Below are positions 55,921-62,181 of a stretch of DNA of 64,000 bases, one piece after another. Origin of the DNA: Natrialba sp. SSL1 (lineage in GTDB: Archaea; Halobacteriota; Halobacteria; Halobacteriales; Natrialbaceae); assembly GCF_001861355.1 (NCBI RefSeq), contig NZ_MASN01000052.1, positions 124,001 through 188,000 of the forward strand, read 5' to 3'. A model generated the notes under the pieces. That model had not been told where the DNA came from. It searched no databases and was given only the letters and a program-made list of their open reading frames with translations. How positions within the stretch are numbered: the stretch's first letter is position 1; each line of letters starts with the position of its first letter. A program made the translations under genes and the position numbers.

Positions 55921-56050
55921 TGAACTACCCCACCCTACCTCTCGCCTGACGGCTCGCGCTTGAGGGTGGGGCTTCCTGCTTCTACGACGCGCTTTGCAGA
56001 CACTGAATCGGTATCCACAGGAAGCGCAGTCTCCACAGGCGTTCGAAAAT
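55921..56050 (-). ncRNA. Predicted omega RNA scaffold at the tnpB 3' end
   Basis: On the minus strand AGCCCCACCCTC and AGGGTGGGG form a 9-bp stem (55963-55971 with 55928-55936) around a small inner GCC/GGC stem. This is the position and shape of omega RNA 3' scaffolds. The guide would be the flanking bases just outside: CGCTCTGGCACACCGACACC (minus strand, 55920 to 55901). The 5' limit is a guess. Confidence 0.6.
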
Positions 56051-57215
56051 CACTGAGTGATTTTCGCAGCCCATCAGAACCGACAGGTTCTGAGGACGTT
56101 GATTCGGAGTGTCCCTCTCCTAACTGCTTGATGCCGCGAGAAAGGATGTTCCACGCTGCGTTCGCGTCTCTATCCGCTTCAAACCCACAGGCAGGACACG
56201 AGTGTTCGCGCACCCACAGCGGTTTGTCCGTCGAAACGCCGCAGGACGCACATTCCTTGGTTGTGCCACTCGGGTCTACGGCAACAAAATACGTACCTTC
56301 GCGTTCGCACTTGTATTCGAGCATCCGCAGGAACGTTCCCCACGCCGCTCCTGCTCGGTTCCGTGAATTGCCCGGTAGTTCAACCAAGCCTTTCGCGTCT
56401 AAGTCCTCCACAGCTACTAAATCGTACTCGATAGCGTAGTAGTTCGACAACTTGTGGAGAAAGTCACGGCGCTTTCGCTTGAGGTCAGCGTAGCGTTGGG
56501 CCACAACTCGGCGTTGTTTCTCCCAATTCGCAGAGCCGTGTTCTTTTCGTGAAAGGGAACGCTGTGCCTGTTCCAAGCGTTCGCGCTTGTCGGATAAGGC
56601 GGGAGATTCAACGGCGGTTCCGTCCGTGTCGTGAGCGTACTTGAGAATCCCAACGTCAATACCGACGCACTTCTCGGGATTCTCAGGCTTCTCTGGTGGG
56701 GATTTGGCCGTTTCGATGCCGAGTATGGCGTACCACTCGCCGGTGGGTTCCTGCTTGATTGTGACCGTCTTGATTTCGGCGTCGTCGGGCAGGTCACGGT
56801 GGAAGGTAAGTGGGATTTCTCCGAGTTTCGAGAGCCACAGTCGCGTCCGACCGCTCTTGTTTTTGAGCTTGAAGCCGGATTGACTGTAAGTGAAACTGCG
56901 GAACTCCCCCGGAGCTTTCCAGTTGAGCGTGCCGACGTGGTATCCGTTCTCTTTGCGACCACGAAGCGTCGTGAGATTGTCATACAACCGTTGAACGACC
57001 TTCTGAAGAACCTTTGAGTGTACTTGTTTCAGGTCGTTCCACCATTTCTTGAGGCTGGGCAGGAGTTTCTGTTCGCTGTATGCCGAGGTGTCGTCGGTGC
57101 GGTTGAGGCGGTGAAGGAAATGGTTGTAGACCTGTCTACAGGTATCGACAGTCCACGCTAACTGTTCTTCGAGAGCGTCGGACGGTCGGAGCTGATACCT
57201 GTAGTTGTAGTTCAT
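55935..57215 (-). CDS. tnpB: RNA-guided endonuclease TnpB (IS200/IS605 family)
   Basis: 426 residues. The RuvC triad looks intact: D187 in GIDVG, E270 in VAVEDL and D350 in DRDANAAW. The zinc ribbon has C322/C325 and C340/C343. TnpB uses an RNA copied from the element's right end (omega RNA) to cut DNA at the donor site, which helps keep the element. The C-terminal 60 residues after the ribbon are a variable tail whose codons overlap the right-end hairpin. Directly follows the small gene (TAG-ATG). Confidence 0.93.
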   Translation of the reverse strand: MNYNYRYQLRPSDALEEQLAWTVDTCRQVYNHFLHRLNRTDDTSAYSEQKLLPSLKKWWNDLKQVHSKVLQKVVQRLYDNLTTLRGRKENGYHVGTLNWKAPGEFRSFTYSQSGFKLKNKSGRTRLWLSKLGEIPLTFHRDLPDDAEIKTVTIKQEPTGEWYAILGIETAKSPPEKPENPEKCVGIDVGILKYAHDTDGTAVESPALSDKRERLEQAQRSLSRKEHGSANWEKQRRVVAQRYADLKRKRRDFLHKLSNYYAIEYDLVAVEDLDAKGLVELPGNSRNRAGAAWGTFLRMLEYKCEREGTYFVAVDPSGTTKECASCGVSTDKPLWVREHSCPACGFEADRDANAAWNILSRGIKQLGEGHSESTSSEPVGSDGLRKSLSDFRTPVETALPVDTDSVSAKRVVEAGSPTLKREPSGER

Positions 57216-59523: not shown

Positions 59524-59568
59524 GATTGATATAGGAGGCGTATCAATATGCCTGTATATCGGCCATGA
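59524..59568 (+). promoter_or_regulatory. cdrL leader: SD inside an inverted repeat and a 6-codon upstream ORF
   Basis: ATTGATA-N9-TATCAAT (59525-59531, 59541-59547) encloses GGAGG (59534-59538). Nine bases on, ATG 59548 opens a six-codon frame MPVYRP whose TGA (59566-59568) overlaps the cdrL ATG (59565) as ATGA. This could couple or gate cdrL translation; alternatively the repeat is an operator. Confidence 0.45.
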
Positions 59569-60377
59569 GCAAGATCACGTTCCGCGCTGACGACGACCTC
59601 GTCGAGGAACTCGAGTCCCTCGAACTCTCCAAGAGCGAGGCGATGCGTCAGGCCCTTCGGTCCTATCTCGGCCACGACGATGCCGAGCGACGGACCGCCG
59701 ACGAGGCGCGTGCGGAACGAGCAGCGGCATCGACACCCACCGAAGAACCATCACTCGGCACGCAACTCGAGTGCATGCTCGAGGAGTTCGTCTGCGAGCA
59801 TGTCGACGAACGGCTCGATGAGCGACTCGAGTCCCAAGCGGACGAGAGTCGCGGTCGTCGAGTCAGAGCGGTGGAAACGACGTCAGACACCGGGCGTCGC
59901 GGTGAGAGTCGGATGCGGAGGCAGCCGCCAGCACGTGACCCACAGGATGTAAACGTCAGTATTTCGCTGACTGGCGTTGCCGAGGGTATCCCCAGGCAGT
60001 CCTCGGCTGAACAGGAGCAAGCGCCGAGCGTGCAGACGCGTGAGACAACACGGACGAACAGTCCACAACCGGGCACTCAGACAGACAGTGGTCAGGCTAG
60101 CCCAACCGATCGCAGTGCTGTCGGACAGGATCGATCGGCACCCACTCGGACCAACGAGCAGTCACAGATGAACACACAGACAGCGTCGACAGAGAGCCAC
60201 ACCTGTGATCAGTGTGGTGAAGCCGTCGACGCAGACCACGTCCACTGTCCGAACTGTGGCGAGAAGTCCTCGCGACGGCTGTTCTGTGAGTGTGGCGATG
60301 AGTACCGGTCAGACTGGTCGTTCTGCCCCGGTTGTGGACGGCGGACGCCGGCAGCAGACGTCTTAGAGCCCCGATAG
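59565..60377 (+). CDS. cdrL: CdrL-type regulator: RHH domain with C-terminal double zinc ribbon
   Basis: 270 residues. N-terminal ribbon-helix-helix (1-45: SKITFRADDDLVEELESLELSKSEAMRQALRSYLG), long disordered middle (about 60-205), then a C-terminal double zinc ribbon with four Cys pairs (CDQCGEAV, CPNCGEKS, CECGDEY, CPGCGRR). In Halobacterium and Haloferax the CdrL protein upstream of cdrS-ftsZ2 binds the cdrS promoter and CdrS controls division genes. Domain order and neighbours match; I infer the same role here. Confidence 0.85.
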   Translation: MSKITFRADDDLVEELESLELSKSEAMRQALRSYLGHDDAERRTADEARAERAAASTPTEEPSLGTQLECMLEEFVCEHVDERLDERLESQADESRGRRVRAVETTSDTGRRGESRMRRQPPARDPQDVNVSISLTGVAEGIPRQSSAEQEQAPSVQTRETTRTNSPQPGTQTDSGQASPTDRSAVGQDRSAPTRTNEQSQMNTQTASTESHTCDQCGEAVDADHVHCPNCGEKSSRRLFCECGDEYRSDWSFCPGCGRRTPAADVLEPR

Positions 60378-60407: not shown

Positions 60408-60579
60408 GTAAGACACTGAAACTCCGGCTCGCCGATAGTTTTATTATGAAGGACGGTATTCTGTTTATTCGCGTAAGACGATTGTCTTACACCGGGCAGG
60501 AACTGCCCAAAATCGCCCGATTGTGGGCGATCGCGGTGTAAGACACGGCGCGTCTGACAGGGGCGCGCCATCGTCTTAC
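60408..60579 (+). promoter_or_regulatory. Structured cdrS-ftsZ2 promoter/leader with five GTAAGAC half-sites
   Basis: GTAAGAC occurs at 60408, 60473 and 60538 (65 bp apart each); GTCTTAC at 60484 and 60573. 60473-60490 is a 7-4-7 palindrome. Stem-loops GGGCA/TGCCC (60494-60508), TCGCCC/GGGCGA (60513-60530) and GGCGCG/CGCGCC (60547-60569) follow, the last enclosed by a GTAAGAC/GTCTTAC pair. TATA-like TTTTATTA lies at 60439-60446. The palindrome is placed near the expected transcription start, fitting an operator for CdrL or CdrS. Confidence 0.7.
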
Positions 60580-60597
60580 CCAACGGGGAATACAACA

Positions 60598-60777
60598 ATG
60601 GAGCGTGTGACACTGCGAATTCCGAAACAGCAGATCGATGAGGTAGAGCAGCTGGTTGACTCGGGCGAGTTCCCGAACCGGAGTGAAGCGATCCGGTCGG
60701 CCGTCCGCGAGATGATCAACGAGCAGTACGACGGCCACAGCGAACAGGCCGGGAAACACAACTGGGCAAAGGTCTAA
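60598..60777 (+). CDS. cdrS: CdrS, small RHH regulator of cell division
   Basis: 59 residues from ATG 60598. Pure ribbon-helix-helix: [20 protein letters not shown], then [16 protein letters not shown]. In model haloarchaea CdrS controls ftsZ2 and other genes of the division cycle. Only 2 bp separate its stop from the ftsZ2 ATG, so they form one operon. The leader carries repeated GTAAGAC elements. Confidence 0.9.
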
Positions 60778-60779
60778 CA

Positions 60780-61967
60780 ATGCAGGATATTGTTCAGGAC
60801 GCCCTTGAGAACGCGGAACAGGAAGCCCGAGAGATGGACGCCACGATGGACGACGACGAGTTCGGTGACCCCCGAATCGTCATCGTCGGCTGTGGCGGTG
60901 CCGGCAACAACACCATCAACCGGCTGTATAACATTGGCGTCGACGGCGCTGACACCGTGGCGATCAACACGGACAAACAGCACCTGAAGATGATCGAAGC
61001 CGACACGAAGATCCTCGTCGGCAAGTCGCTCACGAACGGGCTCGGCGCTGGCGGTGACCCGTCGATGGGCGAACGCGCAACGGAAATGGCCCAGAGCACG
61101 GTCAAAGAGGTCCTCGGTGACGCAGACCTCGTCTTCGTGACAGCAGGTATGGGCGGTGGCACCGGCACGGGTGCCGCCCCCGTCGTCTCGAAGATCGCCA
61201 AAGAGCAGGGTGCGATCGTCGTCGGCATGGTCTCGACGCCGTTCAACGTCGAGCGTGCCCGCACGGTCAAGGCTGAGGAAGGACTCGAGAAGCTCCGCGA
61301 TCAGGCGGACTCGATCATCGTCCTCGACAACAACCGACTGCTCGATTACGTCCCGAACCTTCCGATCGGCAAGGCGTTCTCGGTGATGGACCAGATCATC
61401 GCCGAAACCGTCAAGGGAATCTCGGAGACGATCACCCAGCCGTCGCTGATCAATCTGGACTACGCAGACATGTCCACGATCATGAATCAGGGCGGCGTCG
61501 CGGTGATGCTCGTCGGCGAGACACAGGATAAGAACAAGACCGACGAGGTCGTCAAGGACGCGATGAACCACCCGCTACTGGACGTCGACTACCGTGGTGC
61601 ATCCGGTGGTCTCGTCCACATTACGGGTGGCCCGGACCTCACACTCAAAGAGGCCGAGGGCATCGCGGACAACATCACGGAGCGCCTCGAGGCGTCTGCA
61701 AACGTCATCTGGGGCGCCCGGATTCAAGAGAACTACAAGGGCAAGGTCCGCGTCATGGCGATCATGACCGGTGTTCAGAGCGCGCAGGTGCTGGGCCCGA
61801 CGACGCAGAAGCAGGCCGACAAGTCCCGTGCGAGCATCGAGGGACTCAACGACGGCGACTTCGACGCGAGCAACAACGTCGAACAGTCCGGCCAGAGCTT
61901 CGGTGCCCAGAGCGACGGCGGCCGAAGCGAACTCGACAAGCAAAACGGCGTCGACGTTATCCGTTAA
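60780..61967 (+). CDS. ftsZ2: Cell division protein FtsZ2
   Basis: 395 residues. Tubulin-type GTP-binding loop GGGTGTG (residues 125-131), VGCGGAGNN near 36-44, and a T7 catalytic loop region NLDYAD at 225-230. FtsZ2 drives ring constriction in haloarchaea while FtsZ1 recruits; the cdrS-ftsZ2 pairing identifies this paralogue. The C-terminal 60 residues are a variable tail rich in Ser/Asn/Gly that may bind partners. A GACTGC-GGC-GCAGTC hairpin (61977-61991) follows the stop. Confidence 0.95.
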
Positions 61968-61991: not shown

Positions 61992-62181
61992 ACTGCAGTA
62001 CGGTTGCGGTTCGATTTCGATTTTGTGTGGACCGCTTCGTTTCGTTTCATCTCGTTTCCGAGTGTCTTACTTGACGTGAGACTGTGTGCGGACAGCGCCT
62101 CGTATTCGATACCACCGGTTCGTGCGGTATTCGACCGGAATGTACAACAGGCCCCACGAAGACAGTGTGAGACGACCAGCG

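Follow-up and report, generated by a model that had tools for sequence, protein, structure and literature searches.

The window, i.e., the whole stretch of 64,000 nucleotides of Natrialba sp. SSL1 that was analyzed, contains the cell-division gene ftsZ2 directly behind the small RHH regulator gene cdrS, with the gene of another RHH protein, CdrL, lying upstream (Table 1). The leader that separates cdrL from cdrS bears the heptamer GTAAGAC three times, at steps of 65 bp, and its complement GTCTTAC twice, at the coordinates given by an earlier sequence-only reading of this DNA. The layout described by that reading was likewise confirmed: sites 2 and 3 form a 7-4-7 palindrome whose unit centers are 11 bp apart and which lies where transcription is expected to begin, with its first base 33 bp past that of the TATA hexamer; a GC-rich stem close to the cdrS ATG is flanked by sites 4 and 5; and two further stem-loops are found between sites 3 and 4. 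The motif GGGGAATA, a poor Shine-Dalgarno match, lies between site 5 and the cdrS ATG (60585-60592) and is kept, as such or as a near variant, in most Halobacteria leaders. A few kb upstream of cdrL-cdrS-ftsZ2, an ORF on the minus strand (55935-57215) resembles, by eye, IS200/IS605-type TnpB/OrfB.

Table 1. Features of the cdrL-cdrS-ftsZ2 locus (positions in the window; leader counts refer to distinct Halobacteria leaders).
Feature	Position	Strand	Remarks
cdrL, RHH domain (MSKITFRAD strand) and C-terminal double zinc ribbon	59565-60377	+	Pfam RHH_1 and DZR above cut-offs
Site 1, GTAAGAC	60408-60414	+	Upstream of TATA, outside expected transcript
TATA hexamer TTTATT	60440-60445	+	TATA-like hexamer recurs across leaders
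Core palindrome GTAAGAC-GATT-GTCTTAC (sites 2 and 3)	60473-60490		Predicted transcription start
Stem-loop a, GGGCAG/CUGCCC	60494-60508	+	Leader RNA fold
Stem-loop b, AUCGCCC/GGGCGAU	60512-60531	+	Leader RNA fold
Site 4, GTAAGAC	60538-60544	+	62-68 bp past palindrome start in 114 of 138 leaders
Stem-loop c, GC-rich, enclosed by sites 4 and 5	60547-60569	+	Leader RNA fold
GTCTGAC within stem c, CdrS-type unit	60552-60558	+	Frequent in Natrialbaceae
Site 5, GTCTTAC on + strand	60573-60579	-	At -19 to -32 from ATG in 134 of 138 leaders; ends 18 nt before ATG in the window
cdrS, 59 aa RHH regulator	60598-60777	+	NCBIfam NF058555 CdrS, 119.5 bits (cut-off 100)
ftsZ2, cell-division tubulin homologue	60780-61967	+	NCBIfam TIGR00065, Pfam PF00091/PF12327

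The whole genome holds 103 GTAAGAC/GTCTTAC words in 4,580,837 bases, so that five half-sites in 172 bp (Poisson P about 6e-15) are not a product of chance, and no second cluster of half-sites appeared among the genome-wide places listed. An imperfect copy of the palindrome, GTCTTACTTGACGTGAGAC, lies about 96 bp past the ftsZ2 stop (62064-62082); its GTCTTAC at 62064 is common only to some Natrialba and was discarded as a class-wide member of the array. At the distance usual in archaea between the TATA element and the start, the palindrome would cover the first transcribed bases.

The sequence-only reading had made loss of the GTAAGAC pairs in relatives the observation that would speak against it, and the array is in fact kept throughout the class. 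Leaders from 80 named loci, 30 loci from relatives and others were compared, yielding 138 distinct leaders with 623 exact half-sites, i.e., 4.5 per leader vs. 0.03 in shuffled sequences. The palindrome has a spacer of 4 in 107 of them, of 5 in 20 and of 2-3 in 11, and its distance to the TATA element is constant across leaders: a TATA-like hexamer precedes it by 30-33 bp in 118/138, and by 32-33 bp in 114 of these 118. A site upstream of the core was found in 104 leaders. The 65-bp period itself proved to be lineage-specific rather than a conserved feature, as site 1 is separated from the palindrome by 65 bp in 42 of these 104 leaders and by 52 bp, in opposite orientation, in 35. An 11-bp phase of the outlying half-sites was looked for in Halobacteria and not found; the core pair alone keeps step. 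When 391 Halobacteria genomes were scanned for the exact palindrome with a spacer of 2-8 bp, the reversed pattern serving as control, 380 genomes had it, 378 of them in single copy, and the control count was nearly always zero. A subset of the palindromes of these 380 genomes, among which relatives are not independent, was viewed in context, and all those fetched lie at cdrS apart from the extra copies of genomes G251 and G372, which are isolated, away from cdrS and devoid of an array and were set aside. Among the 11 genomes without an exact palindrome, eight have a variant differing by 1-2 letters at the same place at cdrS, and the assemblies of the other three contain no recognizable cdrS. 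The GTAAGAC repeat most likely serves as a switch site bound by protein, present once per genome in practically all Halobacteria. The viral-contig palindrome matches listed are scattered and chance-like, and they include no haloviral copy of the array. One viral contig, seemingly not haloarchaeal, has six GTAAGAC/GTCTTAC words in 215 bp of GA-rich sequence (L235:9563-9777), several of them as TTAGTAAGAC(GA).

Several observations bear on the identity of the protein that would read this site. In Halobacterium salinarum, ChIP-seq of CdrL gave a single reproducible site, which lies upstream of cdrS (Darnell et al., 2020; PMC7439475), and the one palindrome per genome upstream of cdrS would be the sequence counterpart of that site, the peak being placed only as "upstream of cdrS." The text of that article gives no motif for the site, and its authors found their cdrL deletion unusable owing to second-site mutations. 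The RHH N-terminus of CdrL is encoded upstream of cdrS in 154/154 Halobacteria loci, with a recognition strand that reads M-S-K-[IV]-T-F-R with few exceptions and M-S-K-I-T-F-R in nearly all 154; the CdrS strand reads M-E-R-V-T-L-R in this class, and most loci beyond it have M-E-R-[IV]-T-[IL]-R. The co-occurrence of CdrL and GTAAGAC in Halobacteria is weak evidence, since it amounts to one evolutionary event, and the half-site is asymmetric (GTA/GAC), an asymmetry that a simple symmetric CdrL homodimer would not require. No mention of GTAAGAC or GTCAGAC in connection with the cdrS-ftsZ2 operon was found in the literature searched, and no matches to the CdrL RHH were found in phage records.

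The promoters targeted by CdrS carry a different word. In Haloferax volcanii, the CdrS ChIP study reports 18 sites, including ftsZ1 at -50 and dacZ at -47, in a list from which cdrS is absent (Liao et al., 2021; PMC8406309). Upstream regions of ftsZ1 from 30 Halobacteria have GTCNGAC-N4-GTCNGAC just upstream of the promoter element, with a spacer of 4 in 29/30 (17 exact, 11 with one mismatch and one with two); a spacer of 5 was considered for this pair and abandoned, the ftsZ1 alignments having given 4. GTCNGAC also occurs in 19 of 30 dacZ upstream regions, and GTAAGAC is missing from both sets (0/30 each). The exact GTCNGAC pair is found 1-7 times per genome in 39/39 genomes, with a control of zero, and never (0/138, spacer 4-6) in the Halobacteria cdrS leaders, where the units are GTAAGAC; the single GTCNGAC word occurs in 59/138 of these leaders. 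The two words, which differ in a single letter of one half (GTC vs. GTA), are therefore separate as judged from the sequences, with GTCNGAC for the CdrS targets and GTAAGAC for the cdrS operator. The position and conservation of GTCNGAC suggest that it is CdrS that reads it. The idea that an RHH operator controls cdrS-ftsZ2 gained support from the conservation of the array, but CdrL and CdrS, named together in the sequence-only reading, are better kept apart, as CdrS target promoters have GTCNGAC and never GTAAGAC. For the same reason the candidate for contacting GTAAGAC is CdrL, by itself or together with CdrS, and we consider it probable that CdrL, which is specific to Halobacteria, controls the transcription of cdrS-ftsZ2 by way of this array as its DNA operator.

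Outside Halobacteria, CdrL is absent and the cdrS-ftsZ2 pair is present (PMC7439475); accordingly, in the 14 non-Halobacteria loci checked, ftsZ2 is directly downstream of cdrS and no CdrL is nearby. Twenty cdrS leaders from these organisms (L324-L343) contain 41 GTCNGAC and a single GTAAGAC, and each of the 29 pairwise distances that separate the GTCNGAC units is a multiple of 11 bp. The resulting tandem arrays, with the consensus GTCWGACAAWT, lie between the TATA element and the cdrS ATG, have degenerate units filling the register, and occur in some twelve families of the phylum. Such an array looks like a filament-type RHH operator by which CdrS acts on its own gene. The operator of Halobacteria seems to have arisen by rewiring of this older 11-bp array, with one letter converted per unit, and the conversion looks as if it had moved cdrS-ftsZ2 from self-control by CdrS to control by CdrL. 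Under the order of events that we infer, the ancestral GTCNGAC array would have been read by CdrS itself, an array of this kind persisting in present non-Halobacteria; in Halobacteria, GTC would have become GTA in each unit and CdrL would have taken over, while CdrS would have kept GTCNGAC at ftsZ1 and dacZ.

In the mechanism proposed for present-day Halobacteria, two CdrL RHH dimers would occupy GTAAGAC-N4-GTCTTAC over the predicted start as neighbors, offset by 11 bp or one helical turn, and further dimers could bind the half-sites upstream of the TATA element and immediately ahead of the cdrS ATG, these outlying half-sites adding dimers or permitting looping. Binding over the start would most likely impede RNA polymerase; from this position repression is the favored, and probable, sign of regulation, and the site would act as a repressor site or a rheostat that sets the level of CdrS and FtsZ2.

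Other readers of the array can be envisaged. CdrS itself might bind GTAAGAC and repress its own operon, with the letter change tuning its affinity and CdrL joining through protein contacts. Units of the CdrS type do occupy the same place at cdrS outside Halobacteria, the recognition strands of the two proteins are alike (R-x-T-x-R in CdrS vs. K-x-T-x-R in CdrL), the GAC half is common to both words, and GTCTGAC is found inside the array in Natrialbaceae. We nevertheless regard self-binding by CdrS as unlikely, because GTAAGAC never occurs at the CdrS target promoters examined and none of the 18 CdrS ChIP sites of Hfx. volcanii is at cdrS (PMC8406309). A related scheme would have CdrL-CdrS heterodimers bind a hybrid half-site, of which CdrL would take the GTA half and CdrS the GAC half. 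The half-sites do remain hybrid despite changes of the center base (623 GTAAGAC and 35 GTATGAC, with the symmetric GTANTAC at background), and the palindrome turns both GAC halves inward and both GTA halves outward. The nearest NCBI model of CdrL is that of aCcr1, whose box contains GTAATAC. However, RHH homodimers, Arc being one example, are likewise known to have asymmetric subsites, heterodimers between RHH paralogues are unusual, and the absence of cdrS from the CdrS ChIP list (PMC8406309) counts against this scheme too. We hold it to be quite improbable, and equally so its evolutionary form, in which the 11-bp symmetric GTCNGAC array was turned at the origin of Halobacteria into hybrid GTA/GAC units read jointly by the heterodimer; if it were true, the division operon would respond to the ratio of both regulators.

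The repeats might also act mainly as RNA, the leader folding into alternative stems (2:3 with 4:5, or 2:5 with 3:4) that control the translation of cdrS. The leader of the window has a predicted fold of -69.8 kcal/mol (z -6), and with the half-sites held fixed, leaders reach a mean z of -2.4 and -2.5 in two groups and -1.7 in the rest, vs. -1.1 for ftsZ2 coding DNA. The interval from site 3 to site 4 is clearly structured, 77 of its 109 distinct versions outperforming 95% of their shuffles in folding, the corresponding count for the segment between sites 4 and 5 (stem c) being 26 of 80, which is weak class-wide. A published comparison also suggests post-transcriptional control of the operon in Hbt. 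salinarum (PMC8303175). On the other hand, site 1 lies upstream of the TATA element and is conserved too, site 5 is invariant even in leaders that lack site 4 or stem c, and a search of Rfam gave only a chance-level match (E 0.87, 18 bits vs. a cut-off of 50). RNAalifold, applied to three clade alignments, found no covariation and no compensatory changes in the half-site stems; the half-sites are invariant, so covariation cannot be judged there, and the inner stems of these alignments vary mostly on one side. Given a site outside the predicted transcript and half-sites that never covary, the array would be primarily a DNA operator, and a mainly RNA-based role of the repeats is in our view very improbable. 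As to the second layer of control that the sequence-only reading attributed to leader RNA, the hairpins do fold better than chance, most of all in the interval from site 3 to site 4, but the half-site stems gain no support from covariation. Since site 1 is outside the expected transcript and site 5 is kept when its partner is lost, DNA recognition would be primary, with RNA hairpins as a possible, moderately supported second layer.

The timing and dosing of the FtsZ division ring in archaea are largely open questions. The analysis names a likely DNA word for the sole known direct regulator of cdrS-ftsZ2, a word that practically the whole class keeps once per genome, sets it apart from the word apparently read elsewhere by CdrS, and identifies the probable 11-bp-phased array that preceded it. 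If correct, it offers a small, naturally occurring example of a cell-division operon in which one regulator has replaced another through the change of a single letter per site.

Operators of RHH proteins of the Arc/MetJ/CopG type, such as that of Arc of phage P22, are made of inverted short subsites about 11 bp apart. The core of the array is alike in having inverted subsites one helical turn apart, for which two cooperative RHH dimers would be expected by analogy; it differs in the lack of sequence kinship, in its extra outlying half-sites and in its archaeal promoter. Among archaeal regulators, the RHH protein aCcr1 represses cdvA in Sulfolobales (Li et al., 2023; Yang et al., 2023; as cited in PMC7617429). 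CdrL resembles it as an RHH regulator of a division gene, and the aCcr1 model NF053762 is the best NCBIfam model in 15/15 CdrL members scanned, but at 25-31 bits the scores are far below the cut-off of 60 bits and do not place CdrL in the aCcr1 family; moreover, aCcr1 works with another division machinery and has several targets vs. one. The genome of the window carries a further RHH gene (G000:C35:350221-350331) that scores 33 bits on this model, above CdrL. The CdrS sites of Hfx. volcanii (PMC8406309) are similar in that they belong to an RHH regulator of division genes and have a symmetric motif; the units inferred here for CdrS likewise form pairs at 11 bp. They differ in that GTCNGAC lies upstream of the TATA element, in an activator-like position, whereas the GTAAGAC of the cdrS operator lies over the start, off the CdrS list. 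The closest counterpart is the CdrL region of Hbt. salinarum (PMC7439475), which matches the window in gene order, in the intergenic position of the site and in having a single site per genome; to the ChIP peak given in the text of that article, the present analysis adds a motif, the layout of the half-sites, their class-wide conservation and their relation to the CdrS sites.
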